64,000 nt of DNA from Magnolia sinica (lineage: Eukaryota; Streptophyta; Magnoliopsida; Magnoliales; Magnoliaceae). Under the pieces are notes generated by a model, which saw nothing but the letters and a program-made list of their open reading frames with translations, was not told where the DNA came from and did not search any database. This document shows, piece by piece, positions 608 through 37,003 of this stretch (position 1 is its first letter; every line of letters begins with the position of its first letter). Made by a program: the position numbers and the translations under genes. The DNA is taken from the NCBI RefSeq assembly GCF_029962835.1, contig NC_080574.1:38011501-38075500 (forward strand). The letters are read 5' to 3'.

Positions 608-836
608 GCTGGACATCGGACCGAGTCGAATCGGATTGGGCCCAACTCGACCAGATCCGAGTTCTGCATGGCCTGACCCGAACTCGGTCAGAACCGGGAC
701 CGAGTCCTGGTCCTCTGACCCAATCCGATCCTAACCCATGTGGCCCTGGACCGATCAGAGTTCGACTCGGTCAGGAAAACCGAGTCGGATCAGATTGGCC
801 CAGTTTCGGATCCGATCCAAGAAAAACAAAAAAGAG

Positions 837-880
<44 letters not shown>
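608..880. repeat. GC-rich CGGACCGAG/CTCGGTC repeat followed by (GA)n
   Basis: About 190 bases alternate short inverted words such as ACCGAGTC and GACTCGGT, starting at AGAGCTGGACATCGGACC. They resemble the CGGGTCGGG-type non-autonomous elements also present at 5560-5775. A perfect GA microsatellite follows at about 838-876. No clear terminal repeats or target duplication were found, so the class is not fixed; a hAT-like short element is possible. Confidence 0.35.
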
Positions 881-884
881 GTAC

Positions 885-1120
885 CTTGATATGACAAATG
901 GCATCATGAAGTAATACGCATAGCTCCAGAAGATCCAAGTAAGAACGGCTACCGACATCCCTGTAAAAGCATACCCTGCATATGCGATAATGTCCAGCAG
1001 TGGAGCTTCACCGCTCCCCAATGAATATAGCAGGACTTTGAGCAAGGCGACCTGGAAGAACCATCCGAGCAGTCCCTTACTCCCTTTGTGAACTGTAGGC
1101 TCAGAGCTTCTGGGCTAAAC
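885..1120 (-). pseudogene. YIF1: Single exon of YIF1 (Yip1-interacting factor) homologue, captured fragment
   Basis: The minus strand reads SPEALSLQFTKG, then GLLGWFFQVALLKVLLYSLG, SGEAPLLDIIAYAGYAFTGM and a hydrophobic stretch ending MMPFVISR. This matches the conserved central region of YIF1-family ER/Golgi membrane proteins, which partner YIP1 in vesicle transport. An acceptor (TGCAG/G at 1121-1125) and a donor (AAG/GTAC at 881-885) bound the exon, so it came from intron-containing DNA, not from mRNA. An 8-base insertion (GTAAGGGA, a local duplication) after QFTKG shifts the frame. The exons encoding the rest of the protein are absent from the flanks. It is a gene fragment, not a working gene. 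Confidence 0.75.
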
Positions 1121-1477
1121 CTGCATTTACCACAGGAGAAAAATATTAAAAGAAAATGGAGGGATTAAAAAAACAAAATGTGATATGAAAAGGAAGCTTT
1201 TAGAGCTATGCGAATGGGATTCGCTCGTTCGACTCACACCACAGGTCTAGGTGGGTCACATTTGTGAGATCCAGATCACCAAGCATGTCCCAGAGTATAT
1301 GCATGCAAGAAAACAAAATCAGGCTGGTCTTGCTCATCAAGTGGGCCAGATGTTCCTCAGGAAAAATGGGAGGTATTAAATGGAGTGCTTGATTAGAACA
1401 GATGGTTTTGGAAATAATCTAAGGGGTAGACATAAAGAGCTTTGCTACGTGCATATTTGTGTTTTCTACATTCAAGT
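1121..1477. other. No gene recognised
   Basis: The first bases are probably the intron that came with the YIF1 exon (polypyrimidine tract in minus orientation). The remainder carries weak hairpin-module words (ACTCACACCACAGGTCTAGG near 1232) but nothing with coding or boundary signals. Confidence 0.4.
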
Positions 1478-1620
1478 CTGCTTGTTGGATATCTAAAAAA
1501 TATAGTAGTGGCTTATGAAGATTTCAACCGTGAATGGCATTATACCCGTTGTTTCTTGTGGTGCAGCCCACTTAATTGAGCTTCTGTTTGCTTATTTTTT
1601 GGATCATGCCTTCAAATGAG
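1478..1620. repeat. 143-bp direct repeat, copy 1
   Basis: Nearly identical (a handful of differences) to 3163-3303 in the same orientation, starting GTCTGCTTGTTGGATATCTA and ending AAATGAG. Its inner end belongs to the hairpin module: copy 2 continues into GCTGGAAAAATAGATGGACA, while copy 1 stops at ATGAG, exactly where the SNU114 exon begins. The repeat therefore marks a rearrangement junction. Confidence 0.85.
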
Positions 1621-2028
1621 TTTGAGGTGGGCGTGAAGGATTCGTCCACATACGTCTCAACCCAATTTCTTCTTGGTCTAATGTCAAATCCCACCCTCAT
1701 TCGCAATGTTGCGTTGATTGGGAACCTCCAGCATGGCAAGACTGTTTTCATGGACATGCTGGTCGAGCAGACACACCACATCTCCACCTTTGATCAAAAT
1801 AGTGAGAAGCACATGAGGTGTACGGATACAAGGATTGACGAGCAAGAGAGGAGGATTTCGATCAAGGCAGTGCCCATGTCTCTAGTTCTCGAAGATAGCA
1901 ATGCAAAATCCTATCTTTGTAATATCATGGACACTCCTGGCCATGTAAATTTCTCTGACGAGATGACTGCTGCACTCAGGCTTGCTGATGGCGCTGTGTT
2001 AATTGTGGATGCTGCAGAAGGAGTAATG
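1621..2028 (+). pseudogene. Single exon of the U5 snRNP GTPase SNU114/CLO (EF-2-like), captured fragment
   Basis: A 136-codon open exon. It begins FEVGVKDSSTYVSTQFLLGL, contains the G1/P-loop GNLQHGKT, the switch region DTRIDEQERRISI and the G3 box DTPGH, and ends AAEGVM before a GTAAAA donor at 2029. This is the start of the GTPase domain of the spliceosomal U5-116K protein (SNU114; CLOTHO/GFA1 in Arabidopsis). The G4 NKVD box, later domains and the acidic N-terminus are not found nearby, so only this exon is present. The 5' edge coincides with the AG that closes a module-derived repeat. The exon itself has no stop or frameshift and all three visible GTPase motifs are intact, so capture may be recent or this may be a misassembled piece of a live gene. 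Confidence 0.8.
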
Positions 2029-2908
2029 GTAAAAAGTTCTTTTTTCTTTTTTGGGGACAGATTCAAACTGAAAGACCATGGCTACCCAATGGTTTGGACC
2101 TATCTTGAAGTGTGATAAATGAAACCCTATGCCCCTTCTTCCCTCGAGTGATCTTGGCTCGCAAACTTCATTCAATAATTGCCAATCTCATACTATCCAC
2201 CTTTCAATTTTCTATAGCTAAGAAGAAAAACCCCACATATGCTCCTCCATGTAATTTTGCATGGAAAATCTGGTCAGCAGTTCTCAACAGTTTTACCGTC
2301 AGCTGGTATATCCACAATCGGCAAGTGCTTTATTCTTTATTTGTAGTTTAGCATCAGTTGGTTTATCGAACTTCATAATTTACACTTAATTCTTCCCACA
2401 ATCATGTCCAATAAATGATTGGCTGGCTTACTGATGCAAAGAGGGAGTCTGAGATAAGCAAAGGGAAGTTTATGTGGTTTACATCTGAAAACCCAAGAAA
2501 GACATATTTCTTTGCTCAGCTAATAACCCAGCAATTTCCTTTGCTGAATGTCCACATTTTGCCCAGATACCACCTTGGAATGACAAAGAACCTTGCACAA
2601 ATTATCTAAATCACACTCAGACATTCTTAACCATCTGATTTAACTGCTGAATTTGGACCATAGAACATTTTCTTTTACCATCAATTTGATGGTTATCATT
2701 TGAATGGTTAGGATCGTACAATCTATGTAATTTAGACATTGGGACCCATGATTTGGACAAGCCAGATTGGCATGCATGTATTCCACATGCACAGAAGATG
2801 AGTTGCTGGACCAGAGAGGGGACTAGTTTGCCTGATTTTACTTTGCCCTTCTTCAAATCAGTTTAAAATAAAGCGACTAGCAGTATCAGAATGCAAGGGA
2901 GCACTAAC
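2029..2908. other. Intron-like and anonymous sequence
   Basis: Starts with the donor-side intron of the SNU114 exon (T-rich run at 2038-2053). I see no further SNU114 exon, tRNA or recognised repeat. Bases 2617-2760 contain short inverted words around TACCATCAATTTGATGGTTA (2678-2697). Confidence 0.4.
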
Positions 2909-2979
2909 CTTAATACTTGCTCAGGGGCCTTAGCAATGCGCTCTTGAAAACATGCCCAACTTCTTTTATCGTCATTTCC
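2909..2979 (-). pseudogene. Exon of a PDCD2-like (programmed cell death 2) protein, captured fragment
   Basis: On the minus strand an acceptor (CATGCAG at 2980-2986) precedes 71 bases reading GNDDKRSWACFQERIAKAPE then QVLR, followed by a GTTAGT donor (2903-2908). The FQERIAKAPEQVLR motif is the hallmark just before the PDCD2 C-terminal domain; the family chaperones ribosomal protein uS5. No neighbouring PDCD2 exon is recognised. The open frame extends upstream as FGIMLQDAQIFTCASFGSSM, which may be coding or intron. It is the third gene fragment from an unrelated locus within 2.1 kb. Confidence 0.65.
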
Positions 2980-3112
2980 CTGCATGGAGGATCCAAAAGA
3001 AGCACATGTAAAGATCTGAGCATCTTGAAGCATAATTCCAAAATCAACCATGGAGTCATACCTTGAACAAATTATTTAAACAACTAAAACAGGTCGGACA
3101 AATCTATAACAG

Positions 3113-3330
3113 GAAATAATCCTTGTGGTGCAGCCCACTTAATTGAGCTGAGCATCAGGAAGTCTGCTTGTTGGATATCTAAAAAATATTGTAGTGGCTT
3201 ATGAAGATTTCAACCGTGAATGGCATTATACCCGTTGTTTCTTGTGGTGCAGCCCACTTAATTGAGCTTCTGTTTGCTTATTTTTTAGATCATGCCTTGA
3301 AATGAGCTGGAAAAATAGATGGACAACATG
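3113..3330. repeat. 143-bp direct repeat copy 2 and hairpin-module fragment
   Basis: Bases 3163-3303 repeat 1478-1620. The right end continues as normal hairpin module (GATCATGCC, GAGCTGGAAAAATAGATGGA, GGATAAATAACACAC). CTTGTGGTGCAGCCCACTTA also occurs at 3121-3140 and again at 3240-3259, so the module end is itself duplicated. Confidence 0.75.
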
Positions 3331-4740
3331 GATAAATAACACACATTACAGCCCTTTTTGGATTCATCATCCTTTTCAATGTTCTCTTCACTCTTGCTCT
3401 CATGTATCTAAATCATAAGTAGTATTTCATTGCCATTTATTTTATTTTATTTTTTTTGCTTCAAGTTTGTATGTAGGGAACTGTAATGTCTACATTGGGA
3501 GGGTAATGTAGTCATGATAAAGATTGTTTGACACATTCTCAGTGTTTAAGCATAGCATAAGGTGGCTCCCACAACAAGCACATGCAAAAATCAAGCGGGT
3601 CCTCTATTTAGGCAAGATAAACGATTTTTGTTTAATGTGGACCGTTGGTGATGTAGAATATATCGTGGATAACTTCATAGATGCCTAAGTTTGAAAGAAA
3701 TTAGGTCAGAAAGTTTGATCTATGGCAAAAATGGCCTAAACTCACCTTAAAGCTTCCAGCGCCATAGATTTGCAACTAGTAATTGAATTAGTACATACAA
3801 TATACTATTAAAAAGCCATTGATAAACCCTACAACATGACAAATAATAAAGTTTGCTTAAGTTTTGGAAGATATTAAATGAACGACTTTGATTCATCCAT
3901 GATTGCACTATTGATTTTTGACATAAGCCAAAGAGGGTGTATTTTGATAAGTTACAATGTTTTAAAACCGAGATCAGGTGGGCCGTCAGACCGGTTCGGA
4001 CCGGAACCCGGCATACACAAGAGGAGTTGCATCTACATCCATCAGAGCTCAAACCTTGACTTTCACTAGAAAAACCAAAATGCTTAAAACTACTAGACTA
4101 GCTGTAATTTTATTGTCTTTCATTATTTTTCCTGATGCATATGGTGAATGAGAAGGTCTAACCAGGTGGACCAAACTGCCCACAAAACCAGTCAGCATCT
4201 GTTGATGGTTTATAAGTGAAATCCACATAGTATGGCTTATACTATTCTGAGTTTCTCTACAACCAAAAGTAGAAAGGATTAGTGTACTTATCAATCAAGA
4301 CGGGTGCCAAGAACAATTTCCAATCTCAATCATACACATCAAAATCAAATAATCGAAATGTGGTGTTTATATAGCCCAAGCTCGAGACCAAACCCAACAC
4401 ATCCTACCTAAGCCCAACACAATGTCAGGTCGGTCATGGGTCGGGCGGGTTCCCGCCTGACTTTCAGCCCTAATATATACACTGGTTAGAGATATTAAAA
4501 TTGATTTAGTGATTATATTAAAATCCTTACCAATATACTATGTATAACCACTTCTGGATTACAGTGATTCTGAATCCAGGATGCAAATCCAATAAAGTCA
4601 GGGGATTCCAATCCAGGTTTCAAAATCCACGCTTCCAAACATGCCCTTAGGTTCGGGGGAACATTTTCATAAATACAAAAGTTGCAGGCATTTTCTCATA
4701 AAACCTGAAATTGTGAGGAATTTTCGGAAAAAAATCCTTA
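3331..4740. other. No gene recognised; scattered repeat fragments
   Basis: AT-rich sequence with short open frames that look accidental. Bases about 4130-4270 hold diverged hairpin-module words in reverse (GGTGGACCAAACTGCCCAC, TGGTTTATAAGTGAAATCCA). Bases 4380-4470 carry a GTCGGTCATGGGTCGGGCGG stretch of the pseudo-GC-rich element type. Confidence 0.4.
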
Positions 4741-5126
4741 TTTTCTATTTCAACCAATGGCCCACTCACGGTGGGACCCAGTAGATGAATGGTTCACATT
4801 CATCAAAGGCAGCCACCGGGCTTGGCTGGACGCCAATCTTGCACCAAAAAATAAAAAATAAAAAACAATCGACCCAGAATGATAACATTGTTTTGAACGT
4901 ATGGTAATTACCATATGTCGAAGGTGTATGGGCCCACCCATGATGTATAGATAGCGTCATTTTTACGTTGTTCACTTTGGTGTGGCCCACCTGAGTTCTC
5001 CTATCGAGTCTGATTTTTCAATGTATAGATAGCGTAAGGGATCTCTCCTTACGGATGGATTCGATTTTCGTACGCAACATGTGGGCCCCACATTTTGTTC
5101 TCCTAAAGATATTTTTTTTTCTTTTT

Positions 5127-5157
<31 letters not shown>

Positions 5158-5290
5158 TTGGATGGAAAGTAGAGAACCTGGAGAGCTCGGCCGTAGGTAG
5201 TAAAGAAGAAGGGAATGGGAACAGAGAAGAATCCCTCGATGAGAAGAAGATATTCTTTCCTCAGGCTCTCCGTCCACTCCCCAGGATCAA
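4741..5290. repeat. Hairpin-module fragments and (GA)n tract
   Basis: GTATGGGCCCACCCATGATG (4927-4946) and GTGTGGCCCACCTGAGTTC (4981-4999) are module halves close together. The words ATGTATAGATAGCG occur twice (4943 and 5020). A GA microsatellite follows at about 5131-5158. No protein gene seen. Confidence 0.5.
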
Positions 5291-5515
5291 AACTCAGCAG
5301 CGCTCGTCCCGTCGTCCGTCGTTCGGGTGCGGTTAGGGTAAGAAAAGAGGGGAACGGAGAGGAAGAACCGAAGAAGAGGAGAACGGTTAGGGTAAGAAAA
5401 GAGGGGAAATGGAGAGGCAGATCGTCGGGCAGCAGCGCTCGTCCCGTCGTCCGTCGTTCGGGTGCGGTTAGGGTAAGAAAAGAGGGGAAATGGAGAGGCA
5501 GTGAAAAAAAATGAG
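5291..5515. repeat. Tandem duplication of about 133 bp
   Basis: CAGCAGCGCTCGTCCCGTCG and the following CCGTCGTTCGGGTGCGG appear at about 5297 and again at about 5430. GTTAGGGTAAGAAAAGAGGG occurs three times (about 5331, 5387, 5466). The open frames here are Arg/Glu-rich by-products of the repetition. Confidence 0.75.
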
Positions 5516-5559
5516 GTTAGAAATGTTAGGGTAAAAAAACTGAAAAAGATGTTTTATAG

Positions 5560-5775
5560 CACCCGCCCGCCGTTCGGGTCGGGTCTGTTCGAGTCGGGTA
5601 TACGGGTCGGGTCGGTCCAGACATAGGGCTATCCGGACCCGATCCGAAAATAAACGGATCTGAAAATTCTAACCCGATCAGGCCCGATCTTGACCGTCGG
5701 TTCTGTTCGGAACGGGCCTGATCGGGTTTGATCGGGTCGGATCCGGCGGATCGAGTCAAAAATGTGCACCTCTAG
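5560..5775. repeat. GC-rich CGGGTCGGG / ATCCGACCCGATC repeat element
   Basis: Dense inverted words (CGGGTCGGG, GACCCGATCCG, GATCGGGTTTGATCGGG) ending GTGCACCTCTAG. This resembles non-autonomous hAT-like elements whose tips read TAGAGGTG; the right tip fits, the left tip is not clear. Confidence 0.4.
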
Positions 5776-5848
5776 TCGTAAGGTTGCTGGCTTAAAGGTG
5801 AGGCATGAAAAAACTCATGAGACTATCACTGTGTCATTGCGTCACCTT

Positions 5849-6176
5849 AATGCCTGAGAAAATTACCATTGTAGACCCTACCTTTCATCCAGTGTCTTTT
5901 ATAAAAGATCTAAAACTTACCTTCTCAACTTAGACCTTGCACGTATGAACAGAGCATTTGAGGACTAAAATTCCTCCGCTTTTCAAAGTGTTTTTTGTTT
6001 CTGTGGAACTAAGGCTACGGATTATAACAGTAGAAATAGGCAATGTATCTAGGGGCATTTTCATCCTTAAATGCTCTGTTCGTACATGCAAGGTCTAAGT
6101 TGTGAAGGTAAGTTTTGGATACTCCATAAAAGATGCTGGATAAAAGGTGAGGTCTACAATGGTAATTTTCTCCCTT
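5849..6176. mobile_element. MITE with terminal inverted repeats of about 120 bp
   Basis: GAGAAAATTACCATTGTAGA near 5856 reappears inverted (TCTACAATGGTAATTTTCTC) near 6151-6170. Homology continues inward through ACTTAGACCTTGCA and AACAGAGCATTT. Flanks CCTTAATGC and CCTTAAGC suggest a worn 9-bp target duplication, hence Mutator-like. Two short arms around about 90 bases; no coding capacity. Confidence 0.7.
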
Positions 6177-6275
6177 AAGCGCACTTACACCACAATGGGT
6201 CACCTACAGCCAAGGACTCCCACCTCGTAGTGACTTATCATCTCTGCTGTCAACATACCACTTATGTCACATGCT

Positions 6276-6452
6276 CGTATGAAAACTGTGGGCCCCACCA
6301 TGAAGATCAGCTCGACGAAAATCAAGCTGGTCTGCTAATTTCAACGGACAACCAACAATCTGACTCAACACACAGATGTGGTCCACCTAGTAAGTAGATC
6401 AGCTGATTTTCAAGATGGATGATCTTCATGGTGGGGCTTAGTGTTTTCATGG
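6276..6452. mobile_element. Short hairpin MITE
   Basis: TGGGCCCCACCATGAAGATC (6291-6310) is matched on the other strand by GATCTTCATGGTGGGGCTTA (6421-6440), and the outer arms ATGAAAAC and GTTTTCAT also pair. Related to the hairpin module. Exact tips unresolved. Confidence 0.6.
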
Positions 6453-6559
6453 TATGGATTTCCTAAAAAAGTATCATGTTGGTGGGAGAGTTTGGTGCGG
6501 CACACAGCTTGAGTGCAGTCGGCGGCAGGCGATTAGTTCTCTGCAAAGACATCGGAAGC

Positions 6560-8246
6560 GGGAAATTTGCGACTGTACGACCCATTTATGGCCCTATTTA
6601 CGAGACCAAGCCCACCTTATTTTCCCCTGCGAGAATACGCCCCCGCTGTACGGATGGCTTGCCAAAGGTCGAAAATGCCCCCTGCTTGTTCCTTCAAGCG
6701 GATAGGTGGTGCTCGAAGACGAGCGCTGACGCTCCTCGAACTCCGAGTTGCACGAACGGTTCAAAAGGAGTCGGGATACTCTGTTATTAGGTCAATAGAG
6801 AATTCCTGTTACCCTAATGGTTTGGCGTCCGAAGCTGTTTTTTATTTTTTTTATTTTTTTAGTGAGTGGTGACGTGGACCAATGAGATTTTGGGTATCAG
6901 GAATTCTCTGTTGACTTGATAACAGAGGATCCGGACTCGTTCAAAAGATATCAAAGTTACATGGGCCCACAGTAATGTATTTATTATATCCACAACGTTC
7001 ATCCATATTTCGAGATCATTTGGGAGCACTATCAAAAAAAAAAAAAAATCATATCCAAAGATCAACTGGACCACACCACAAAGAGCAACGGGAAAATTGA
7101 TTTTCACCGTTAAAAATTTTGTGGGGCCCACCATAACATTTATTTTCCATCCAATTTATTCATAAGGTCACAAAAGCCTGGATGAAGAGGAAAAACAAAT
7201 TTTGTAATGATCCAAAACTTCTAGGACCCCTAAAAGGGTTTCAATGGTAGACGTTCAATCTTCCACTACCTTTTACAGTGTAGTCCACTTAATAGCTAAA
7301 TCTATCCTATTTTTCTTCCCAAGCGTTAGTACGAGTTCGCCAAATAGATTAACGGTTTGGATATAACACATACCTCATAAAAGGACCCACAAAGACGGTG
7401 GGAATTACAATAGGAAAAAAAAAGCCTGGTATCTATAGGTACGGATTATAACCGTAAAGATAACTGCAGCCAATGCTTTTTCAATATGTCCTCTACTATG
7501 CATCGAAGGTCTTTTGATATGTACTTCGATATATCGAATGTCTTTCGATTAATCGAAAAAGGTCCAAAACTGTCTAACAACTTTGCATAAAAAATCCTGC
7601 AATTTTCGATCAATCGAAGTGTATTCGATATGTATCGAAGATATAGTTATAGATTATAGCCGTAGCCATGACTGCAGTCCGTCAAAGTCTATGCAAACTT
7701 TTTTATTTTTTTATTTTTTATTTTTTATTTTTTATTTTTTACATGGAGAACTTTATTCTACCTACAATTTTCTCTAATACATATTTATATAAATATGTAT
7801 ATATAAGCATATAAAAAAAATTCTCTCATTTTTTCATTTATTTCTCTATTCATTTAACAAGAAAATCTTCTAAACCAAAATTAGTTACTTAATGTACCCT
7901 ATATGATTTTGGGGTAGGAGAAGATACTTTAGCCAACTAACCTAGTTATTTTCCAAGATTCCATCAGGTTGATGGTCGAAAATCCATTTCATTCACTTTG
8001 TGGTCAATTTCAATCAGTTCGTGGTCATTTCCATGTATTTCATCGTCAATTCCTTCCACTTCACGGACAATTCCACGCATTTCACGGTCATCCCAAACTA
8101 TTCCGTGTTGATTCACGGTCATTTCGAGGCATTTCCTAATCAATGCTCTTCACTTCATGGTCATTTGCATGCATTTCGCGGTCAATTCGCATCAATTCAT
8201 GATCATTCCCATGCACTTCACGGTCGTCCCAAACTATTCTGCGTTG
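6560..8246. repeat. Left terminal inverted repeat
   Basis: Inverted match of about 17463-18983. Zones: terminal sequence 6560-6767; inserted MITE 6768-6938; hairpin module 6945-7400; CGATAT zone about 7500-7640; AT-rich about 7690-7870; GATTTTGGGGTAGGAGAAGA (7908) and TTGATGGTCGAAAATCC (7972), both present inverted at about 17735-17815; satellite in minus orientation 7980-8246. Confidence 0.85.
6768..6938. mobile_element. 171-bp Mutator-type MITE inserted in the left terminal repeat
   Basis: Perfect 9-bp target duplication GTTCAAAAG at 6759-6767 and 6939-6947. Terminal inverted repeats of about 45 bp begin GAGTCGGGATACTCTG on the left and GAGTCCGGATCCTCTG on the right, with AGAGAATTCCTG further in. 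The uninterrupted site ACGGTTCAAAAGATATC is present in the right terminal repeat (reverse complement near 18777-18795), which proves the insertion. Confidence 0.93.
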
Positions 8247-8282
8247 ATTCACTGTTGTTTCGAGGCATTTCGCGGTCAATTC
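7980..8282 (-). repeat. 21/136-bp satellite, minus-orientation block and inversion point
   Basis: Carries the satellite in reverse complement (TTCACGGTCATTTCGAGGCA words). At 8247-8282 the orientation flips. The arms 8147-8246 and 8283-8382 are a near-perfect inverted repeat around a 36-bp spacer; the innermost 50 bp pair without mismatch. Confidence 0.85.
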
Positions 8283-9519
8283 CAACGCAGAATAGTTTGG
8301 GACGACCGTGAAGTGCATGGGAATGATCATGGTTTGATGCGAATTGACCGCGAAATGCATGCAAATGATCGTGAAGTGAAGGGAATTGACCACGAAATGC
8401 CTCGAAACGACCGTGAATCAACACAGAATTGTTTGGGACGACCGTGAAATGCATGGGAATGATCATAGTTTGAAGCGAATTGACCGCGAAATGCATGCAA
8501 ATGATCGTGAAGTGAAGCAAATTGACCGCGAATTGCCTCGAAACGACCGTGAATCAATACGGAATTGTTTGGGACGACCATGAAGTGCATGGGAATGATT
8601 ATGGTTTGAAGCGAATTGACCGCAAAATGCATGCAACTGACTGTGAAGTGAAGCGAATTGACCACGAAATACCTCGAAATGACCGTGAATCAACACGAAA
8701 TTGTTTGGGATGACCGTGAAATGCATGGGAATGATCATGGTTTGAAGCGATTTGACCGTGAAATGCATGCAAATGACCGTGAAGTGAAGGGAATTAACCG
8801 TGAAATGCCTCGAAACGACCGTGAATCAACAAGGAATAGTTTGGGATGACCGTGAAGTGCATGGGAATGATCATGAATTGATGCGAATTGACCGTGAAAT
8901 GCATGCAACTGACCGTGAAGGGAAGGGAATTGACCGCGAAATGCCTCGAAATGACTGTGAATCAACACGGAATTGTTTGGGACGACGTGAAGTGCATGGG
9001 AATGATCATGGTTTGAAGCGAATTGACCGCGAAATGCATGCAACTGACCGTGAAGTGAAGGGAATTGACCGCGAAATGCCTCGAAACGACCGTGAATCAA
9101 CACGAAATTATTTGGGACGACCGTGAAATGCATGGGAATGATCATGGTTTGAAGCGATTTGACCGGGAAATGCATGCAAATGATCGTGAAGTGAAGGGAA
9201 TTGACCGCGAAACGACCGTGAATCAACACGAAATTGTTTGGGACGACCATGAAATGCATGGGAATGATCATGGTTTCAAGCGAATTGACCGTGAAATGCA
9301 TGCAAATGACCGTGAAGTGAAGCGAATTGACCGCGAAATGCCTCGAAACGATCGTGAATCAACACGGAATTGTTTAGGACGACCATGAAGTGCATGGGAA
9401 TGATCATGGTTTGAAGCGAATTGACCGCGAAATGCATGCAACTGACCGTGAAGTGAAGCGAATTGACCGCGAAATGCCTCGAAACGACCGTGAATCAACA
9501 CGAAATTGTTTGGGATGAC
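8283..9519 (+). repeat. 136-bp satellite array, left block
   Basis: About nine units. Each unit is five 21-bp monomers (type TGACCGTGAAATGCATGGGA plus one base) and one 31-bp monomer containing GAATCAACACGGAATTGTTT. Many monomers begin TGACCG, read as Asp-Arg-Glu on the plus strand. Because 136 is not a multiple of 3, open frames here are by-products and break each unit. The array is interrupted by the LTR at 9520 and resumes at 13487. Confidence 0.92.
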
Positions 9520-10944
9520 TGTCACGTCCCAAACTCGGAAAACGGGCTCACAAAATTCCCGATCGCCGAATCTAGTGCCGACAGCCTCCGTAGTGTCTCA
9601 TTCTCAGATTCCGGCACTCTCATGCCAGATTCCGATCCTGGGATCCTACAAGGAGGATTTTCAGTAGAAATTTTTTTTTGTAATAGAGCATAACCATAAG
9701 CATAACCAAGTCACAAAACAACATCACCACATAACCACTATATCGAAAACTTTTAAGTACAATGCAGAAAGGAAAAATACAGGGTGATTAAAAGCTTCAA
9801 AATAAACTGATGTGCGCTCCGGCCTCAGCGCTGCTGCTGTCCAACACTACCTGCACGCAACGGTCGTGCATAAGCTTACAAAAGCTTAGAGGGTACTGTA
9901 AGTGTGTGTGCAAGGCCAGCGCCAAGTGTACAATAACAGAGTAATGCGGAAATATGCGATAAGTCCATGAATGCTATCAGCTGTACCAACGCTATATGAT
10001 GCAAGACATGAATGCTATCGGCCATACCAAGGCCATGCGATGCGAGGCCTATGTAGCCAAATGTCATATGCGAGATGCGAAGCAAACATGTCAGTCCTCA
10101 TCAAGTACACATATCAGTACAGTTCCTCTCTGGATATCACCGGGGTCTAATACACCTTACACTGACTGCCTCCCACTGATGCGCCACCAAGCAAGTGGAA
10201 GAGACCACACTATCCGCCCGACTCATTTGCCAAGCAGTAGCCTGCTTGTCGATAGCGGACTCATTTGCGATGGTCAAACTCACTAGCTTATAGCCCCTCA
10301 CTCGGGCGGATAAGGCCACACCCCCTTCCAACCGACCACGAAACATTGGGAGACGCAGCCTCACGGTATTCGGCACTCGGCGCTCGTGTATCCACTCGGT
10401 CTAGACGTTGGAGCATCTCCTGGTACCAAAAAGGTTCTGGGACTTTCACCCAAGGACATCCTAAGTGCCCATAGTGCTAGAACCAAGCATTTCCGGTATC
10501 CGATACGGCCATCCACGATGTGTCTATGGAGCCACGGCCCTAATGTCGCTAGGGCGTGCAGTGATCAAGTCACACATATGCAAGATGCATGAGTCACACC
10601 GTACAATCATGCAGCAATCTCACGCGTACCACGCAATCATGTGGGGCACTCCGTCTCATAAGGAGTCCCGTAAATGTCTCAGTCCAACGGCTTATGCTAT
10701 GATCAAACATTCCTCATATCAAGCATACAAATGATGCATATGGGTATGAATCATGGGGCTATACTAAGCATGTTATAAAGTGGTGAACTATCAACAAATG
10801 TGGCCTACTAATGGGCCCTAGGGAGAGTTATAATGCGGACATTTAACCAACATTATTCTTACAACGTGGACGTCAAACCAACATTTCTCCCAAGGCATAA
10901 CCTGTCGTCAAACATTATTACACACACTATGGGGGAATCCCTCA

Positions 10945-11190
10945 TTGCAATGGACCCTAAGGACATCCTGTTGGGCCTCGACCCATGGGCCTTATATTCA
11001 TCAAATGGGCCGCATCATATGGGCCTTTTATAAATCAAGTGGGCCACATCGAAGGGGCCTTATGTACATTGCAATGGGCCATATCCCACGGGCCTTTGAA
11101 TGCATCACAATGGGCCTTGTAACATGGGCCTCAAATACATTGAATGGGCCCCATCACATGGGCCTTACATGTTTACCAAGGTGGGCCACA
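10945..11190. repeat. GGGCC-rich minisatellite inside the LTR
   Basis: ATGGGCC or GGGCCTT words recur every 18-20 bases (for example 11005, 11040, 11083, 11112, 11128, 11147, 11160), giving a period of about 36-40 bp. Peptide frames through it are not genes. Confidence 0.7.
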
Positions 11191-11254
11191 CCAAAATACA
11201 AGTGATGATGATGATTTCCACCATTAAAATCCCTAAGGCCCACCAACAAATATA

Positions 11255-11435
11255 TATTATATGCAATATAACATATATAATATAATATATATATATATAT
11301 ATAAATATATATATACATATATATATTATGATATATATATATATATAGATAATAATATATATATTTATATACACACACACCACACGCACGCACGCACACA
11401 GTACGCACGCACACACACGCGCACAGGGGGGGGGG
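11255..11435. repeat. Compound (AT)n - (AC/CG)n - (G)n microsatellite
   Basis: Runs of TATATA from 11255 to about 11370, then CACACA with CGCACG to 11426, then a G homopolymer. Confidence 0.9.
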
Positions 11436-13486
11436 GGTCCCACCGTCCAGGGTGGACGGTGCGGACGAACACATACAGCAAGGTAGGCCCCACCGTCCGT
11501 CTGGACGGTGGGCAGCAACACATACATTTCTGTGGGTCCCATGTGGGGCCCACCATAACGTTTATCTTCCATCCAACCCGTTCACAAGGTCGCACGGGCC
11601 TGGAGGAAGAGGAAAAAAAGAATTTCAGCTTGATCCGAAACTTCTGTGGCCCATAAAAGGGTTTCAATGGTAGAGTTCAATCACCGCTGTTTTCTTGTGG
11701 TGTGGGCTACCTGAGGCCTGGATCTGACTAATTTTTGGAGGGGACCCACCTCAAGGGGTGGTCCACCTCATGGACGGCGTGGATACAAAATATACATCAT
11801 GGTGGGGCCCACATGAGAGGCCGTGGGACCCTGCAAGGACGCCCGCCCGCCTGGCGCTGTCAGCGTCTCTGACGCCACAGCAGCAGCAACTGCTGCTGCT
11901 TGTTGATATTTTTTTATTTTTTATTTTTGAAAAAACCTCTGTTCTCAAGGTTTTGCATACGTGAGGCCCGCATCAGGGAGATCTGAGCTCGCCATCGATC
12001 CCCATAGCTCAAGACAAGAAGGATGAGCCCAATATTCAATATATTTGGTGAATAAAAACAGCAGTTGGATTTTTAACGGTAACCACCACTGTTTCTCATG
12101 CTATGGCCCACCAGTTACTCGGATCTGCTTCATTTTTCGGCTCAACGCCTAAAATGAACTCAAGAATGGAATGGACGGCATGGATTGATCTCATACATCA
12201 ATGTGGGGTCCACACAAGTGGACCACCTCAATAGGGTGTGAACCAAGCTGATATTTGTGCTTTCATTTCAGTCCAGGGACGGCCTATGCATAGTGCATGC
12301 ACAAGGTGGGCCTTGCTCCTGTGGGCCACCAAATGGATGAATGGTAAGGATAAAACATACATTAAGGTGGGGCTCATCCAAGTAAGTCACATGGCCACCC
12401 CATCACACACAAAGCTAAATAAATAAATAAATAAAAGAGAAGGAGAGAGAGAGATAGAGAGAGAAATGGGACACGCATGATGGAGGGCTCCGCCACTATG
12501 AGCCCTCCCTTACAAGCAATCATACATCGAGTGGGTCCCATTGCATGTGGGCCCACCAAATCAAGGATCAACGGTGGAGATCCCTTCTCCACCAAAATGA
12601 AAGGTCTAGATGACCCTTTACAAGCTAGAAAATAGACATCATGATGGGGTTCATAGAGAATGGCCCCATCACGGAATGATCATGAAGATCAAGGTGGGCC
12701 ATCGACCACATCTTAAGGTCCCAAGTGAGATCCATACCATTGATCGGTAGGCCTCACTTGGTCCATCATCAAAACATGAAAAACCTATCCTATAAGGCAC
12801 CCACCGTCCGATCTTCTAGGTCCGATGGAAAGCCGACCTCCTTGTGCTTTACTTTGATGGTGGGAGATGAAGATTCAAGGGCTAAGATGGAAGATTTTGG
12901 GATGGAAAGTGGGCCACACTACTCACTTCTCTTTTTTTTTCTCTCCTTGGAAAAATGTGGACGTGTGAGGCTTATGGGTTGCTTGGAATTGGTGTGAGAA
13001 AAGAGAAAGAGAGAGAGAGAGATAAGGAGAGGTGATGGGTGTGATGGGTGAGTGATGTGAGGTGAGGGATGGGTGAAGTGAGAGGTGGTTTGACTTTGGT
13101 GAGAAAAAGCATGGGTTGCTTTACTTGTGGAGAAAGGTGATGTGTACTTGACATGAGGTGATGGATGGGATTGATTGATGGGATTGATTTGACACATTGT
13201 AGAGATTCTCTTGGGATCGCAAACGCACGGCGTTTTCTTCGAAATAAACGCCGGCTCACATCTTCCTGCCAGGGTATCGGATCGGTACAAGAGACGCGGC
13301 GTTGGAACCGCGGCGACGGTGCGGTCGCAATGGTACAAGTCTTGTTTTAAGCCGACTCAAATCTACAGCATAAGGCTTAGGGTTGATCGCAACGTCGATT
13401 ATACGTCACAGGTTGCCGAAATTCGACAGGAAGGATCGCGGGATTCGACGGAACAGAACGGACTAGGATACGGGTCTTACAATGAC

Positions 13487-13804
13487 CGTGAAATGCATGG
13501 GAATGATCATGGTTTGAAGCGATTTGACTGTGAAGTGAAGGGAATTGACGGCGAAATGCCTCGAAACGACCGTGAATCAACACGGAATTGTTTGGGATGA
13601 CTGTGAAGTGCATGGGAATGATCATGAATTGATGCGAATTAACCGTGAAATGCATGCAACTGACCGTGAAGGGAAGGGAATTGACCGCGAAATGCCTCGA
13701 AACGACCGTGAATCAACACGGAATTGTTTGGGATGACCGTGAAATGCATGGGAATGATCATGGTTTGAAGCGATTTGACCGCGAAATGCATGCAAATGAC
13801 CGTG
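13487..13804 (+). repeat. 136-bp satellite, continuation after the LTR
   Basis: CGTGAAATGCATGGGAATGA picks up the unit cut by the LTR. About 2.3 units follow to CAAATGACCGTG at 13804, where the array ends against non-satellite sequence. Confidence 0.92.
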
Positions 13805-13970
13805 CAACTTAAGAGACTAGAAGAAGCACACTGTGAACACAACTTGGATAACATGGAGTGTGTACCGACGTGGGTGTGTACTAACAAGCTAACCTAAAAA
13901 AGCAAAACAAAAAAATTTTAAAAAAAAATTAAAAAAAAACACATTAGAAAAAAAAAACGAAAAAATTACA
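13805..13970. other. Non-satellite spacer, A-rich at its right end
   Basis: Begins CAACTTAAGAGACTAGAAG and turns into an A-rich run (13893-13970). No gene recognised. Confidence 0.5.
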
Positions 13971-14385
13971 CTTCGATATATCGAATAGAACACGATATAT
14001 CGAAACTCTTCGATATAATCGAAACCTAATCGATTAATGGTAGAGTAAGTTGTCGATTATATCGAAATCTAGTCGATATAATAGTAGTAAGTCATCCTTA
14101 CAACCGATCGATATATCGACTATTATTCAATTGATCAAAAATGGTCACACACTGTCCAGCGACAAAATGCTTTTTAAATTGTATTATCGATATAATCGAG
14201 TAGATGTCGATATATCGGGGTATCGATATATCGACTAGATTTCGATATATCGAAAATTGTCAGAAAATGTCCAGCGTCGAACTGCTTTTTTAGTGCAATT
14301 ATCGATTATATCTCTGATATTTCGATATATCGAAGTAAGTATATATCGAGTAAATATCGATATATCGAAAATGTACCTCAATGGT
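13971..14385. repeat. Array of TCGATATATCGA palindromes
   Basis: About 15 copies or near-copies of the palindrome TCGATATATCGA (variants with TATAAT or TTAATC centres) in roughly 400 bases. Words of the type CTGTCCAGCGAC or TGTCCAGCGTCG recur at about 14153, 14267 and 14385, giving a coarse period near 115 bp. The same palindrome type and GTCCAAAACTGTC-like spacers occur in both terminal repeats (about 7500-7640 and 18070-18215). Candidate protein-binding or hairpin-forming zone; function unknown. Confidence 0.8.
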
Positions 14386-15436
14386 CCAGCAACCAGAATC
14401 TTATTGACTGGGGAAGGATTTCAAGTGGAGGAGGTGGGCCACTATTCGCTGATCGAGAAGCTCGATTTAAATGAAGAAGGGAAAGGAGATGGTGATGGAA
14501 TCGAGGGTATGTTGTTGTATGGGTCAATTGAGAATGATTGTCCATCATCATTTGGTAAAGAATCTCTATTGATCGAAGTACTCAAAGAAAGATATGATAA
14601 TGGACTGGAGGATGTGATATTGCATCGGTCAATAGAGAAATCATCAGGTGAAGGATTTGAAGTGGAAGTGGACCACCATCCACCGATCGAAAGGATTAAT
14701 TTGCATGAACAAGGGGTATGAGATGATGACAAACGCGAGGATATATCATTTGATGAGTCAATAGAGAGAGGGCCAGTTTCATCATCTTGTGGAAGATCTG
14801 AAGTGAAGGAGGTGGGCCACCATCTTAAAATTGAGGATATCTATTTGCATGAAGGGGGAGAAGGAGATTGTAGTGATTTAGAGGGTGTGTTATTCCATGG
14901 GTCGATAGAGAACAAACCACTATCATCATCTCAAAAAGTATTTGAAGCGGAGGGAAGCCACCATCCACCAATCAAGGGTTTTGATCTACATGAAGGGGCA
15001 GAAGGAAATGGTAATGCACTGGAGAGTATGTTCTCCATGGATTCATAGATAAAGGGCCGCCATCATCTTCTGGTGAAGGATTCTAAGTGGCGGAGGTTCC
15101 CTACGATCTGCCTAGCAAGTAACCTGGTTTACATACAAATGGGGGTATAAGAGATGTCAATAGGAGAGAGAGTGCATCATTCAATGCATCAAATGGGAAA
15201 GGATCCCAATTGTTGCCTAGTACAGGAAGTGAAGTTGACAAGGTGGGCCATCATCAGCATATCGAAGAACTTGGGTCACATTTAGCAACCACAAACGATG
15301 TGGTAGCACAGCCAAGGAAATGTTCCCAATCTGACCAACAAAGGCATTGGATGACAGGAGGTAGTCGATCACAGACAATTTCGATTTCTTTCAAGTGTGG
15401 GAAGGTTGGACACTCGAATGCACGGAATTGTCGAAA
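14386..15436 (+). pseudogene. Degenerate tandem-repeat ORF ending in a zinc-knuckle-like motif
   Basis: Not recognised as a known protein. One plus frame from 14257 to 15048 is interrupted by a single stop (near 14719). It carries an acidic repeat of about 47-50 residues with landmarks GEGFEVE, GHHPPIE, LHEGGEGD, LEGVLFHGSIEN and SSS, seen at least four times (about 14404, 14640, 14790, 14935). A shifted continuation gives GEGF at about 15075 and GHHQHIEELGS at about 15247. The C-terminus reads ISFKCGKVGHSNARNC, a CX2CX4HX4C zinc knuckle in which the first Cys is Ser. The TGA stop is formed by the first TTGACCGTG satellite monomer. A transposase C-terminal knuckle, a gag knuckle or a host protein are all possible origins. 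Confidence 0.55.
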
Positions 15437-15645
15437 TTGACCGTGAAATGCATGGAATTGTCCGTGAAGTGGAGGGAATTGACGGTGAAATGCATGGAAA
15501 TGACCATGAAGTGAAGGGAATTGACGGTGAAATGCACAGAAATGACCGTGAAGTGAAGGGAATTGACCGTGAAATGCATGGAAATGACCGTGAAGTGAAG
15601 TGGAATCGTCGAAATTGACCATATATTGCATGAAAATGAGCGTGA
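15428..15645 (+). repeat. Simple 21/42-bp satellite block
   Basis: About ten 21-bp monomers alternating two types, one with GTGAAATGCATGGAA and one with GTGAAGTGAAGGGAA, giving a 42-bp period. No 31-bp monomer is present, so this is the simplest and perhaps ancestral form of the satellite. It begins inside the stop codon of the preceding ORF. Confidence 0.9.
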
Positions 15646-15898
15646 AATGATATAGTAATTGATTGAAATACTTGAAAGAAAAGTGCCCAGTGTATATTCT
15701 CTCAGGTCAGACTAAGCGTTTGCTAGGGTGATGCCGTTGAAACCAATATCGATATCTGTACAATTATTCTATAATCTTAAGAGAATAGGGGGAACGATCA
15801 CCACCTACAACCAGTGGCACGCCACAGCCTAGTTTCTGCCTTCAGAAATTTGTATGTGCATATGTATCTCGGTTGCATGTGATCAGTCCTCAAAAAAT
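15646..15898. other. Spacer between satellite blocks
   Basis: About 250 bases of unique-looking sequence, including GCCTTCAGAAATTTGTATGTGC and GGTTGCATGTGATCAG. This could be the 3' flank of the preceding ORF. Nothing else recognised. Confidence 0.4.
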
Positions 15899-17740
15899 AA
15901 AGGGAATTGATCGCGAAATGCATGCAAATGACCATGAAGTGAGGGGAATTGACCGCGAAATGCCTCAAAACGACCGTGAATCAACACGGAATTGTTTGGG
16001 ATGACCGTGAAATGCATGGGAATGATCATGGCTTGAAGCGATTTGACCGCGAAATGCATGCAAATGACTGTGAAGTGAAGGGAATTGACGGCGAAATGGC
16101 TCGAAACGACCGTGAATCAACACGGAATTGTTTGGGATGACCGTGAAATGCATGGGAATCATCATGGTTTGAAGCGATTTGAGCGCGAAATGCATGCAAA
16201 TGACCGTGAAGTGAAGGGAATTAACCGCGAAATGCCTCGAAACGACCGTGAATCAACACAGAATTGTTTGGGATGACCATGAAATGCATGGGAATGATCA
16301 TGGTTTGAAGTGATTTGACCGCGAAATGCAAGCAAATGACCGTGAAGTAAGGGGAATTGACTGCGAAATGCCTTGAAACGACCGTGAATCAACACGGAAT
16401 TGTTTGGGATGACCGTGAAATGCATGGGAATGATCATGGTTTGAAGCGATTTGACCGCGAAATGCATGCAAATGACCGTGAAGTGAGGGGAATTGACCGC
16501 GAAATGCCTCGAAACGACCGTGAATCAATACGGAATAGTTTGGGATGACCGTAAAATGCATGAGAATGATCATGGTTTGAAGCGATTTGACCGCGAAATG
16601 CATGCAAATGACCGTGAAGTGAAGGGAATTGACCGCGAAATGCCACGAAACGACCGTGAATCAACACGGAATTGTTTTGGATGACCACAAAATGCATGGG
16701 AATGATAATGGTTTGAAGCGATTTGAGCGCGAAATGCATGCAAATGACCGTGAAGTAAAGGGAATTGACCGCGAAATGCCTCGAAACGACCATGAATCAA
16801 CATAGAATTGTTTGGGATGACCGCGAAATGCATGGGAATGATCATGGTTTGAAGCGATTTGATCGCGAAATGCATGCAAATGACCGTGAAGTGAAGGGAA
16901 TTGACCGCGAAATGCCTCGAAACTACCGTGAATCAACACGTAATTGTTTGGGATGACCATGAAATGCATGGGAATGATCATGGTTTGAAGCGAATTGACC
17001 GCAAAATGCATGCAAATGATCGTGAAGTGAAGGAAATTGACCGCGAAATGCCTCGAAACGACCGTGAATCAACACGGAATTGTTTTGGATAACCACGAGA
17101 TGCATGAGAATGATCATGGTTTGAAGCGATTTGAGCACGAAATGCATGCAAATGACCGTGAAGTGAAGGGAATTGACCGCGAAATGCCTCGAAACGACTA
17201 TGAATCAACAAAGAATTGTTTGGGATGACCGCGAAATGCATGGGAATGATCATGGTTTGAAGCAATTTGATCGCGAAATGCATGCAAATGACCGTGAAGT
17301 GAGGGGAATTGACCGCGAAATGCCTCGAAACGACCGTGAATCAACACGGAATTATTTGGGATGACCGTGAAATGCATGAGAATGATCATGGTTTGAAGCG
17401 AATTGACCGCGAAATGCATGCAACTGATCGTGAAGTGAAGGGAATTGACCGCGAAATGCCTCGAAACGACCATGAATCAACACGGAATAGTTTGGGATGA
17501 CCGTGAAATGCATGGGAATGATCATGGTTTGAAGCGATTTGACCGCGAAATCCATGCAAATGACCGTGAAGTGAAGGGAATTAACTGTGAAATGCATGGA
17601 AATGACCGTAAATCAAAACGAAATCGCCGGGATTGACCGTGAAATGCATGGAATTGATCACGAAGTAAATGAAATGAGTGAAATTGACCGTGAACTGATT
17701 GAAATTGACCGCGAAGTGAATGAAATGGATTTTCGACCCT
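15899..17740 (+). repeat. 136-bp satellite array, right block
   Basis: About 13 units with strict 136-bp spacing: the same ATGACNGC frame start recurs at 15949, 16085, 16357, 16493, 16765, 16901, 17037, 17173, 17309 and 17445. Units differ by only a few bases. From about 17580 to 17740 it decays into single 21-bp monomers and joins the right terminal repeat. Confidence 0.93.
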
Positions 17741-18983
17741 AGATCTAATGGAATCTTGAAAAATAACTAGGTTGGTTGGCTAAAGTAGCTTCTCCTACCC
17801 CAAAATCATATACGGTACGTCAAGTAACTAATTTTGGTTTAGGAGATATTCTTGTTAAATGAATAAAGAAATAAATGAAAAAAAGAGGGAAATTTTTTTT
17901 TATATGTTTATATATACATATTTATATAAATATGTATTAGAGAAAATTGTAGGTTGAATAAATTTATCTATGTAAAAAAATAAATAAAAATAAATTAATT
18001 AATTTAAAAAAAATTCATAAACCGTCATAGAATACAGTTATGGCTACGGTTATAATCCGTAGCTATTGGTCATATCATCTTCGATACATATCGAATACTC
18101 TTCGATATGTATCGAAAATTGCAGGATTTTTTAAGCAAACTTGTTGGACAGTTCTGGACCTTTTTTTATTAATCAAAAGACCTTCGATACATATAAAAGT
18201 ACATATCGAAGCGGCAAAGGCTACGGCTATGGCTACGGTTATTATCCGTAGCTATAGAAAACACCGTAGCCATAAGTTCCTTGCCTATTTATTTATTATT
18301 ATTTTATTTTTTACTTTTGTAATCCCCACCGCTTTTTATGGGCCCTATGATGAGGTATGTATTATATTCAAACCGTCCATATATTGGACAAACTTGTATT
18401 AAGGCTTGTGATGAAAAATGAGACAGATCTAGCTATCAAGTGGACCACACTGTAAAAGGCTGTGGAGGATTGAACGTCTACCATTGAAAACCTTTTAGGC
18501 GTCACAGAAGTTTTGGATCATTATGAATTTTTTTTTTCCCTCTTCAACCAGGCTTTTGTGACCTTATGAATAGATTGGATGGAAAATAAATGTTATGGTG
18601 GGCCTTACAAAATTTTTAACGGTGAAAATCAATTTTCCCGTTGCTCTTTGTGGTGTGGTCCAGTTGATCTTTGGATATGATTTTTTTTATATAATGCTCC
18701 CAAATGATCTCGAAATATGGATGAACGTTGTGGATATAATAAATACGTAACTGTGGGGCCCATGTAACTTTGATATCTTTTGAACCGTTCGTACAACTTG
18801 GGAGTTCGAGGAGTGTCAGCGCTCGTCTTCGAGCACCACCGATCCGCTTGACGGAACAAGCAGGGGCATTTTGGACCTTTGGCAAGCCATCCCTACAGCT
18901 GGGGCGTATTCTCGCAAGGGAAAATGAGGTGGGCTTAGTCTCCTAAACGGGCCATAAAGGGGTCGTACAGTCGTAAATTTCTC
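17463..18983. repeat. Right terminal inverted repeat
   Basis: Mirror image of the left repeat, uninterrupted. Satellite plus-orientation to 17740, AT-rich zone 17850-18010, CGATAT zone about 18070-18215, hairpin module about 18340-18765, terminal sequence to 18983. It preserves the empty site TTTTGAAC for the MITE that sits in the left arm. Confidence 0.85.
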
Positions 18984-18984
18984 C

Positions 18985-19400
18985 ATCAGAGCGGATTGCC
19001 TGTGACCGCGGGCACAGAGATATTTCTGTGCCTGCGGCACTGTGTGGTTCACAGGGATGTCTGTGAAGAATCCACTCCGTTCATCTGTTTTAAAAGACCG
19101 CAATAGGAAATTAATCTAAAAATCATCCAGATCCAAAATTCGCGTGGGCCATACCACAAGAAACAGTGTGGATTGAAAGACTGGGGTGACAGAAGTTTTG
19201 TATCAGGATGATATTTGTGACTACAGTTTATCTGAGTGTTAATAATCCTATGAACAGTTTGGATGGCAGATATACATCATGATCAGCTCTAGAAAGGTTT
19301 CAATAGCGGATGTTTTCGTTTCCATTGTATATGTATATCATGCAATCAACGGGGGAACTCATTCATCGGATGGGAGATGTTGTGCTTGGAAGAAGTTTTC
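18985..19400. repeat. Diverged hairpin-module half and stem-loop words
   Basis: CACAGAGATATTTCTGTG (19014-19031) is a short palindrome. Bases 19100-19330 carry the module in degenerate form (GTGGGCCATACCACAAGAAA at 19144, ACAGTTTGGATGGCAG at 19255). No gene seen. Confidence 0.5.
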
Positions 19401-20528: not shown

Positions 20529-20746
20529 GGTCCCACCCGTGCCGTTGTTCAAATAAACTGGAAAAAGGAATCAAACCATCCATCCAGCCATATCTAAGAA
20601 CACACCAAGAAGCATCCTCTCCTTCAAACAATTGCATGGTCCCACCCGTGCCGTTGTTCAAATAAACTGGAAAAAGGAATCAAACCATCCATCCAGCCAT
20701 ATCTAAGAACACACCAAGAAGCATCCTCTCCTTCAAACAATTGCAT
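20529..20746. repeat. Perfect 109-bp tandem duplication
   Basis: 20529-20637 and 20638-20746 are identical base for base (GGTCCCACCCGTGCCGTTGT start). A third, diverged partial copy follows (GGCCACCTATGCCATTGTTC at 20760). It lies just upstream of the PIP1 copy. Perfect identity implies a very recent duplication or an assembly repeat. Confidence 0.93.
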
Positions 20747-20779
20747 GATCAGACAAGCAAGGCCACCTATGCCATTGTT

Positions 20780-34984: not shown

Positions 34985-35157
34985 GCGCTGGAAAAGTTTT
35001 CATGTGTCCCGCCCTGATGGATATACATCCAGTTTTTCCACCTCATGTTAAGACACGGGCCTAAAAAATCAGGTAGATCCAAGTCTTAAAGTGGACCACA
35101 CCATAGGAAATATTGGTGATTGAACGGTCACTATTAAAAACTACCCCAGGATATTTG
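34985..35157. repeat. Hairpin-module half, cut by the next element
   Basis: GTCCCGCCCTGATGGATATA through AAGTGGACCACACCATAGGA to the GGATATTTG target site. The matching continuation appears at 35699 after the inserted element. Confidence 0.7.
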
Positions 35158-35698
35158 GGAAACGGATTGGCTACTCCCCCTGCCACCAGCCAATGGCTGG
35201 TGGTCGGTGATCTTTGGGCCCCACCATGATGTATGTGTTTCATCCATTCCGTCCATCTATTTTTCTAGATAATTTTAATATATGAGAAAAAAATTTGAGG
35301 TAAATCCCAATCTTAATTTGACCACATTAAAGTAAACAGTTTTTAATGAGCTTCGACCATTAAAAACTTTTTAGGGGCCATAAAAGTTTTGTCTCAAGCT
35401 GATCTTTGTTTTCTTCCCTTCATCTGGGCTTGTATGACCTAATCAACAGATTGGATGTCAAATAAACAGTACATTGGGCCTTAGGAGGATTTTAATGGTG
35501 GATATCCAAATACTATTGTTTTCCTATGGTGTGGTCCACCTGAGATTTATATCCCTCTCATTTTTTATACTCAAAACTAAAATTATCTTTAAAAATGGAT
35601 GAACGGAATCGATGAAACACATAAATCATGGTGGGGCCCACAGAGCACCGACCACCAGCCCCGGGGCTGGTGGCAGGGGGAGTAGCCAATCCCTTTCC
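35158..35698. mobile_element. Mutator-type hairpin MITE, GGAAACGGATTGGCTACTCC family, copy 1
   Basis: Perfect 9-bp target duplication GGATATTTG at 35149-35157 and 35699-35707. The tips GGAAACGGATTGGCTACTCC (left) and the reverse complement of GGAGTAGCCAATCCCTTTCC (right) match over more than 30 bases; the interior is the hairpin module. 541 bp, no coding capacity. Confidence 0.94.
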
Positions 35699-35805
35699 GG
35701 ATATTTGCGCCCACGTGTTAACGACAGCTGGTCAAACTGATGGAAGAGTAGATATTTTAAGGACATCCTAGTGGACTTCGTAGCCTGGCCCAGAAGGGCA
35801 GCACG

Positions 35806-36976: not shown

Positions 36977-37003
36977 GAGTATGGTCCGCAGGTCAGCTTT
37001 GCC

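Follow-up and report, generated by a model that had tools for sequence, protein, structure and literature searches.

From the layout of repeats at positions 6560-18983 of a 64-kb stretch of Magnolia sinica DNA (hereafter the window), we propose that this 12,424-bp structure with inverted arms is one old DNA transposon, probably immobile and most likely Mutator-like, non-autonomous or decayed. Its description as a terminal-inverted-repeat transposon of foldback shape that carries satellite DNA, already offered in the original prediction, is now well supported by the alignment of the arms and by a hidden Markov model (HMM) of the satellite. With a probability of roughly 0.6, we further suggest that a minisatellite belonging to this foldback-shaped, probably Mutator-like element grew in place into its satellite arrays.

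Inverted arms and nested insertions

Ungapped identity between the left arm (6560-8283) and the reverse complement of 17441-18983 is 88.1%, which bears out the predicted inverted arms of about 1.5 kb; the likeness of the two arms is far above chance. The alignment, spanning 6540-8283 against the reverse complement of 17441-19003, comprises 1,320 matches, 178 mismatches and 311 gapped columns, 180 of the latter corresponding to a nested miniature inverted-repeat transposable element (MITE) together with one copy of its target-site duplication (TSD). BLAST reports the arm pair as a single match of 1,377 bp with 82% identity, gaps counted. Both arms follow the zone order that had been claimed, namely tip, hairpin module, CGATAT zone, AT-rich zone and satellite, with identities in the arm alignment of.919,.912,.82,.902 and.857, respectively. 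The arms face each other with their tips outward, the transition from AT-rich zone to satellite falls at matching positions, and the whole has the foldback form, in which long inverted arms composed of repeated subunits flank a variable middle. As had also been foreseen, the module forms a hairpin, albeit a weak one, with self-inverted scores of 118 in the left arm and 104 in the right, where 200 dinucleotide shuffles reach at most 58 and 68. The element's own TSD is imperfect (CATCGGAAGC / CATCAGAGC, edit distance 2), and a search of the rest of the window with the joined outer flanks, as an empty site, gave no match across the join. The parts of the element are as follows.

6560-6767, + strand: left terminal tip, beginning GGGAAATTTGCGACTGTACGACC; 91% identity to the right tip by BLAST
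6768-6938, no strand assigned: nested 171-bp MITE with its own inverted ends; perfect 9-bp TSD GTTCAAAAG, second copy at 6939-6947
6939-7376, + strand: hairpin module of the left arm; its first 9 bases are one copy of the MITE TSD; 89.5% identity to the right-arm copy
7377-7690, + strand: CGATAT zone of the left arm, resembling the core units; limits set by eye
7691-7984, + strand: AT-rich zone of the left arm, 23% GC; 90% identity to the right arm
7985-8283, - strand: inverted satellite of the left arm; its outer edge consists of 21-bp repeats
8283-9519, + strand: left satellite array of 136-bp monomers, after the orientation flip at 8283
9520-13481, no strand assigned: nested insert of 3,962 bp resembling a solo long terminal repeat (LTR), TGTCACGTCCC...GGGTCTTACA; TSD ATGAC at 9515-9519 and 13482-13486
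13487-13806, + strand: rest of the left satellite array (HMM)
13807-15434, + strand: core, with CGATAT tandem units (about 13960-14390) followed by a decayed frame with repeats of about 47 amino acids and a degenerate end resembling a CCHC knuckle
15435-15642, + strand: 21/42-bp minisatellite whose start coincides with the stop codon of the decayed frame; the 136-bp unit may derive from it
15643-15899, + strand: unassigned spacer between the minisatellite and the right array, set from the sequence
15900-17726, + strand: right satellite array, about 12.9 units (to 17660); 21-bp repeats at about 17532-17726; inside the arm homology from 17441
17727-18020, - strand: AT-rich zone of the right arm, from the arm alignment
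18021-18310, - strand: CGATAT zone of the right arm; limits set by eye
18311-18785, - strand: hairpin module of the right arm, without the MITE; BLAST match to the left module over 18352-18785
18786-18983, - strand: right terminal tip, from BLAST and the arm alignment

The two nested insertions had escaped mention in the original prediction. The MITE is present only in the left arm, the right arm retaining the empty site, and no second copy was found in the window at an E-value of 0.01. The larger insert looks like a solo LTR, judged from its ends and 5-bp duplication only, and there is no second full copy within the window. Excising it restores an in-phase 136-bp monomer (left/1132-1267) with 97.8% identity to another left monomer; minus both inserts, the element measures 8,277 bp. 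The claim that the interior is mostly satellite is refuted by these figures: the HMM-defined satellite amounts to 3,883 bp, which is 31% of the 12,424 bp (47% of the 8,277 bp), and the LTR-like insert makes up 32%. An 82% copy of part of the hairpin module lies within this insert (11542-11682), placing the module in two kinds of element.

Growth of the satellite arrays

The satellite HMM, built from 12 monomers of the right array and applied with E-values up to 0.01, located no satellite elsewhere in the window; 16 of the 3,883 bases fall outside 7985-17726, all of them adjoining. Of the predicted seeding of satellite at other sites, the window accordingly offers no instance. The main unit is 136 bp long; Tandem Repeats Finder (TRF) places 12.9 copies of it at 15900-17660 and 9.2 at 8283-9519, and a further 320 bp of the left array lie past the LTR-like insert. 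When gaps are allowed, the 136-bp consensus can be aligned to a 21-bp unit repeated in tandem (about 6.5 x 21 bp); the distances at which autocorrelation is elevated include 21, 42, 94, 115 and 136. A simple array with a 42-bp period (90% matches, TRF) at 15435-15606 has a 21/42-bp structure, and 21-bp repeats occur at the outer edges of both satellite arrays. The tandem repeats common to the two arms are the inner 300 bp of the satellite. Beyond these the large arrays do not mirror each other: the inverted satellite of the left arm runs for about 300 bp, the orientation flips at 8283, and the arrays that follow lie on the + strand. The junction at 8283 has a palindrome matching at 84 of 86 bp across a 36-bp spacer.

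Of the 26 monomers with at least 100 aligned bases, the left array, joined across the LTR-like insert, contributes 11 and the right array 13, making 24. On a tree of these 24, the array labels need four changes, compared with shuffled means of 8.2 and 8.1, and none of 500 shuffles was as low. Mean monomer identity is.923 within the left array,.910 within the right and.906 between them. In the left array, monomers six positions apart are most alike (.947 over five pairs; permutation p.002 for the maximum over seven lags), which supports a six-monomer block duplication. The pattern spans the LTR site, and the left array therefore probably grew before the LTR-like insertion. The pattern in the monomers is consistent with arrays that grew in place as blocks were duplicated locally through unequal exchange. 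Array-specific clustering, the left block duplication and the simpler, precursor-like repeats at the array edges and in the core together uphold the description of the satellite as amplified. Relative to the 24-monomer consensus, transitions number 42/519 at CpG, 41/992 at other C/G and 24/1,698 at A/T positions (Fisher p.0019 for CpG versus other C/G), and this richness at CpG suggests past cytosine methylation and silencing of the arrays.

CATGCA and TGCATG together occur 30 times in 7985-9519 and 37 times in 15900-17726, with 39 occurrences in the 45 kb to the right of the element and 10 in 608-6559. We take this sequence to be the RY motif bound by plant B3 proteins; its abundance in the arrays may be explained by repetition alone. 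A derivation of the satellite from the tip or the module is unsupported, since its 9-base core GACCGYGAA has no match in the tips, modules, CGATAT zones or AT zones by exact matching, with no looser search made. A pattern taken from the satellite gave no matches in viral contigs, a result that is uninformative for plants.

In the core, TCGATAT and ATATCGA are counted 21 times, as against three in the CGATAT zone of each arm, two in the spacer, one in the LTR-like insert, none in 608-6559 and five in the 45 kb to the right. The arm CGATAT zones score 80 and 66 against the core units, the maxima for dinucleotide shuffles being 55 and 47. The decayed frame has four recognised repeats of about 47 residues, with stops and one frame change, and ends in FKCGKVGHSNARNC. 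A 25-residue piece of it matches zf-CCHC at E=0.071 and 13.7 bits (cut-off 20.8), and the whole 105-residue piece gave no zf-CCHC match at E-values up to 5. A CLIP_1 match in the frame (E 0.0035, 17.7 bits against a cut-off of 26) was judged to be due to chance, and a VANC-type protein was represented by no family in the core pieces searched against Pfam, where the presence of a VANC model was unchecked. Since MULEs (Mutator-like elements) with a C-terminal CCHC finger, and others with a minisatellite after the transposase open reading frame (ORF), are listed in PMC6446971, it is possible that the core frame is a decayed transposase tail.

We envisage the following course for growth in place. 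The starting point would be the minisatellite of 21-bp repeats located where the decayed gene has its stop codon; the array itself is observed, and we infer that it is ancestral and that the gene was the element's own. Arms and core have similar 21-bp repeats and CGATAT motifs, seen at the inner ends of both arms. From the 21-bp repeats may have come 136-bp units of about 6.5 x 21 bp, which would then have expanded in each array by local block duplication, as the left array supports, presumably through unequal exchange. A short hairpin template switch at 8283 could have produced the reversed left array. The MITE and the LTR-like element inserted later, as their exact duplications show, and the left block pattern continues across the LTR site. 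The arrays were perhaps also methylated and silenced, to judge from the cytosine transitions, which are highest at CpG.

Several results weigh against this reading. The window holds a single copy with satellite, and 85 of 4,000 random point pairs match as well as the element's own TSD. At 8283 the palindrome has a runner-up elsewhere matching at 80 of 86 bp, and hence the template switch is no more than a possibility. Well-supported inner branches make up 3 of the 23 in the monomer tree, and the best lag in the right array is three, which is not significant (p.12). Between the arms, CpG-type sites show 15 transitions and 12 transversions in 99, versus 56 and 50 in 1,097 elsewhere; both kinds of change are raised there, and so no clear sign of methylation comes from the arms. 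Masking the CGATAT-type motifs lowers the arm-core scores to 41 and 34, within the shuffle range: the likeness is mostly the motif itself, which is common to arms and core, and homology beyond it is not shown. Neither a transposase nor any other Pfam family reached its cut-off in the core-frame pieces searched (four, two and two). Finally, the differences between core repeats by codon position (.384,.293 and.353) reveal no clear coding constraint and give no support to a decayed transposase tail.

Classification, known systems and alternative explanations

Membership of the element in Mutator is likely and unproven. MULEs commonly have terminal inverted repeats (TIRs) of hundreds of bp and TSDs of 8-11 bp (PMC6446971), and the TIRs found here are about 1.5 kb long and 88% identical. 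Further marks of the group are a transposase with a DDE domain and, next to it, a zinc finger of the SWIM or CCHC type. Long TIRs are not decisive, as some MULEs are without TIRs and other superfamilies may have long ones. The missing transposase is compatible with a non-autonomous MULE, and we do not file the element as a proven one. The name Mutator given in the original prediction is plausible, the long TIRs fitting it, and unproven, with no transposase in the core pieces searched and an imperfect TSD.

It had also been stated that no family with this architecture was known. This is wrong, because Tetris, VANDAL, Rehavkus, Phantom and Tm1 share parts of the plan. Closest is Tetris, a foldback transposon of Drosophila virilis with an outer TIR domain, tandem repeats in the TIR and a middle domain, inside which satellite arrays arose from the repeats (PMC4079207). 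Like the present element, Tetris has long TIRs (up to 1,735 bp) with an outer flanking domain and inner tandem repeats, a middle domain without apparent coding capacity, and satellite arrays within the element; its TSDs are 8-10 bp (PMC4079207). In both, tandem repeats inside the TIR are amplified within the element. The Tetris unit is about 220 bp, has a 37-bp stretch in common with the outer flanking domain and forms arrays of up to 66 copies (PMC4079207), whereas the present unit is 136 bp, composed of 21-bp repeats, and the large arrays lie in one orientation.

Other systems resemble it in part. The VANDAL elements of Arabidopsis, a plant MULE group, have short motifs in fast-evolving non-coding tandem repeats, which are bound by VANC anti-silencing proteins (PMC5735166, PMC10398659); they differ in their degenerate TIRs and VANC genes (PMC10398659), the present element having long TIRs and no recognisable gene. 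Rehavkus has a minisatellite before the 3' TIR and a 9-bp TSD, and the aphid Phantom MULEs have a minisatellite after the transposase ORF; unlike the Magnolia element, both have animal hosts and a transposase, and the portion of PMC6446971 cited mentions no higher-order satellite in them. The Tm1 Mutator/foldback family of Meloidogyne has composite TIRs with a variable number of short motifs and 9-bp TSDs, with the difference that its motif C is mostly 14 bp long in 1-9 units and that satellite is unmentioned in the cited part of PMC3169594. Among plant elements, MuTAnT and FARE-type foldback MULEs have long modular inverted ends, with no satellite body mentioned in the part of PMC4486113 drawn upon. 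Plant MULEs with multiple long TIRs have repeated TIR-type modules (PMC3310237, in part); the repeated unit is the TIR itself, and the words "satellite" and "tandem repeat" occur 0 times in the text of PMC3310237. Plant satellites have been traced to DNA transposons, namely En/Spm in Arabidopsis, the Tnr1 MITE in rye and the CACTA element Jozin in Chenopodium (PMC9659126). These belong to other superfamilies; the table entries listed from PMC9659126 include no plant Mutator or foldback source, and most of the plant satellites in the table rows consulted come from LTR retrotransposons. Among the titles and abstracts surveyed in the open-licence PMC literature, no plant MULE with a satellite body was found, the nearest being VANDAL with its tandem repeats. 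Within that survey, what seems new is that an element, probably of a plant, has a Tetris-like plan and combines repeats of the precursor-like and the higher-order kind at a single locus.

The origin of satellite DNA is a long-standing question. At this single locus several stages seem to be preserved together, namely a precursor-like array with 21/42-bp periods, the 21-bp repeats at the array edges, the 136-bp unit of higher order and its duplication in blocks. The locus would lend itself to testing whether foldback-type transposons are nurseries of plant satellites, as Tetris is in flies.

Four other explanations were weighed. We think it unlikely that an ordinary genomic satellite was captured by the transposon and not born inside it. 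MULEs capture host DNA and are described as taking up foreign DNA (PMC6446971), but capture is at odds with the simple 21/42-bp repeats in the core and the 21-bp repeats at both outer array edges, with the inner 300 bp of satellite common to both arms, and with the absence of detectable satellite from the remainder of the window.

Selection on function is an explanation that we entertain only tentatively, and it is compatible with growth in place: the tandem repeats might be sites for an anti-silencing or transposase protein encoded by the element, in the manner of VANC, and selection would have driven the arrays. Both arms and the core contain CGATAT motifs as well as 21-bp repeats, and VANC targets are tandem repeats in non-coding parts of VANDAL (PMC5735166, PMC10398659). 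The best-conserved stretch of the monomer, AAATGCATGCAA (10-base windows at.991), would suit a binding site as well; it is without CpG, so a lower mutation rate may account for its conservation. Known Pfam domains are missing from the decayed-frame pieces, and VANDAL TIRs are degenerate (PMC10398659), unlike those described here. By analogy with these systems, one could even imagine a Mutator-like plant family in which a minisatellite at a gene end, bound by the family's own protein, was copied to both arms and grew into the 136-bp satellite, making a mobile source of new satellite DNA. We hold this to be something of a long shot; if true, such a family would match Tetris and have, in addition, motif arrays of the VANDAL kind.

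An origin from two related elements inserted in opposite orientation, the satellite having expanded between them, is quite improbable. The imperfect TSD of the element would be accommodated, as would the related end at 1-607, though the partner of that end would fall outside the window. Against this, the transitions from AT-rich zone to satellite match, the arms face each other with tips outward, and the flanks are still alike, weakly, as a decayed duplication.

Misassembly is common at satellite arrays and inverted repeats, yet a false inverted duplication is hardly credible here, because each arm has many private changes of its own (the zones being 8-18% different), and the MITE and LTR-like insert have exact target duplications, each on one side only. 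Growth of the element's own minisatellite remains our preferred reading.

Related copies and neighbouring features

One further end of a related element is present.

1-607, + strand: module and part of the tip from the right end of a related, diverged element, truncated by the window edge; outer end imprecise

Its module is 81.5% identical over 444 columns, and positions 77-208 of the left tip match it at 72%; with the right tip there was no match at an E-value of 1e-3. The prediction had taken this copy as proof of a family, which holds for the module and part of the tip and not for the satellite: the window edge precedes any satellite zone, and therefore 1-607 does not show satellite as a family trait.

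The hairpin module at 6939-7376 also has weaker partial copies (about 65-86%) near 3.2, 28, 29, 35-37, 49-50 and 60 kb. A further element of about 2.4 kb lies at 35157-37543, with inverted ends of about 543 bp that are 85.7% alike; each arm has GGGAAACGGATTG close to its outer end. At 56920-58438 and 62118-63635 lie direct repeats of about 1.5 kb, 88% alike and some 5.2 kb apart, which are possibly an LTR pair. A 109-bp unit occurs twice at 20529-20747 with 100% matches, the result of a recent duplication or an assembly error.

Three frames outside the element have protein matches, among them one to PPR repeats, whose genes are typical of plants and in keeping with a plant host. The frame at 54734-55477 (- strand) has a weak RVT_1 match (E 2.7e-05) that is below the cut-off. 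That at 1576-2112 (+ strand) contains a GTP_EFTU domain (E 8e-30), and the first 300 residues of a 903-residue open frame at 25036-27744 (- strand) match PPR repeats (PPR_2, E 2.2e-35).

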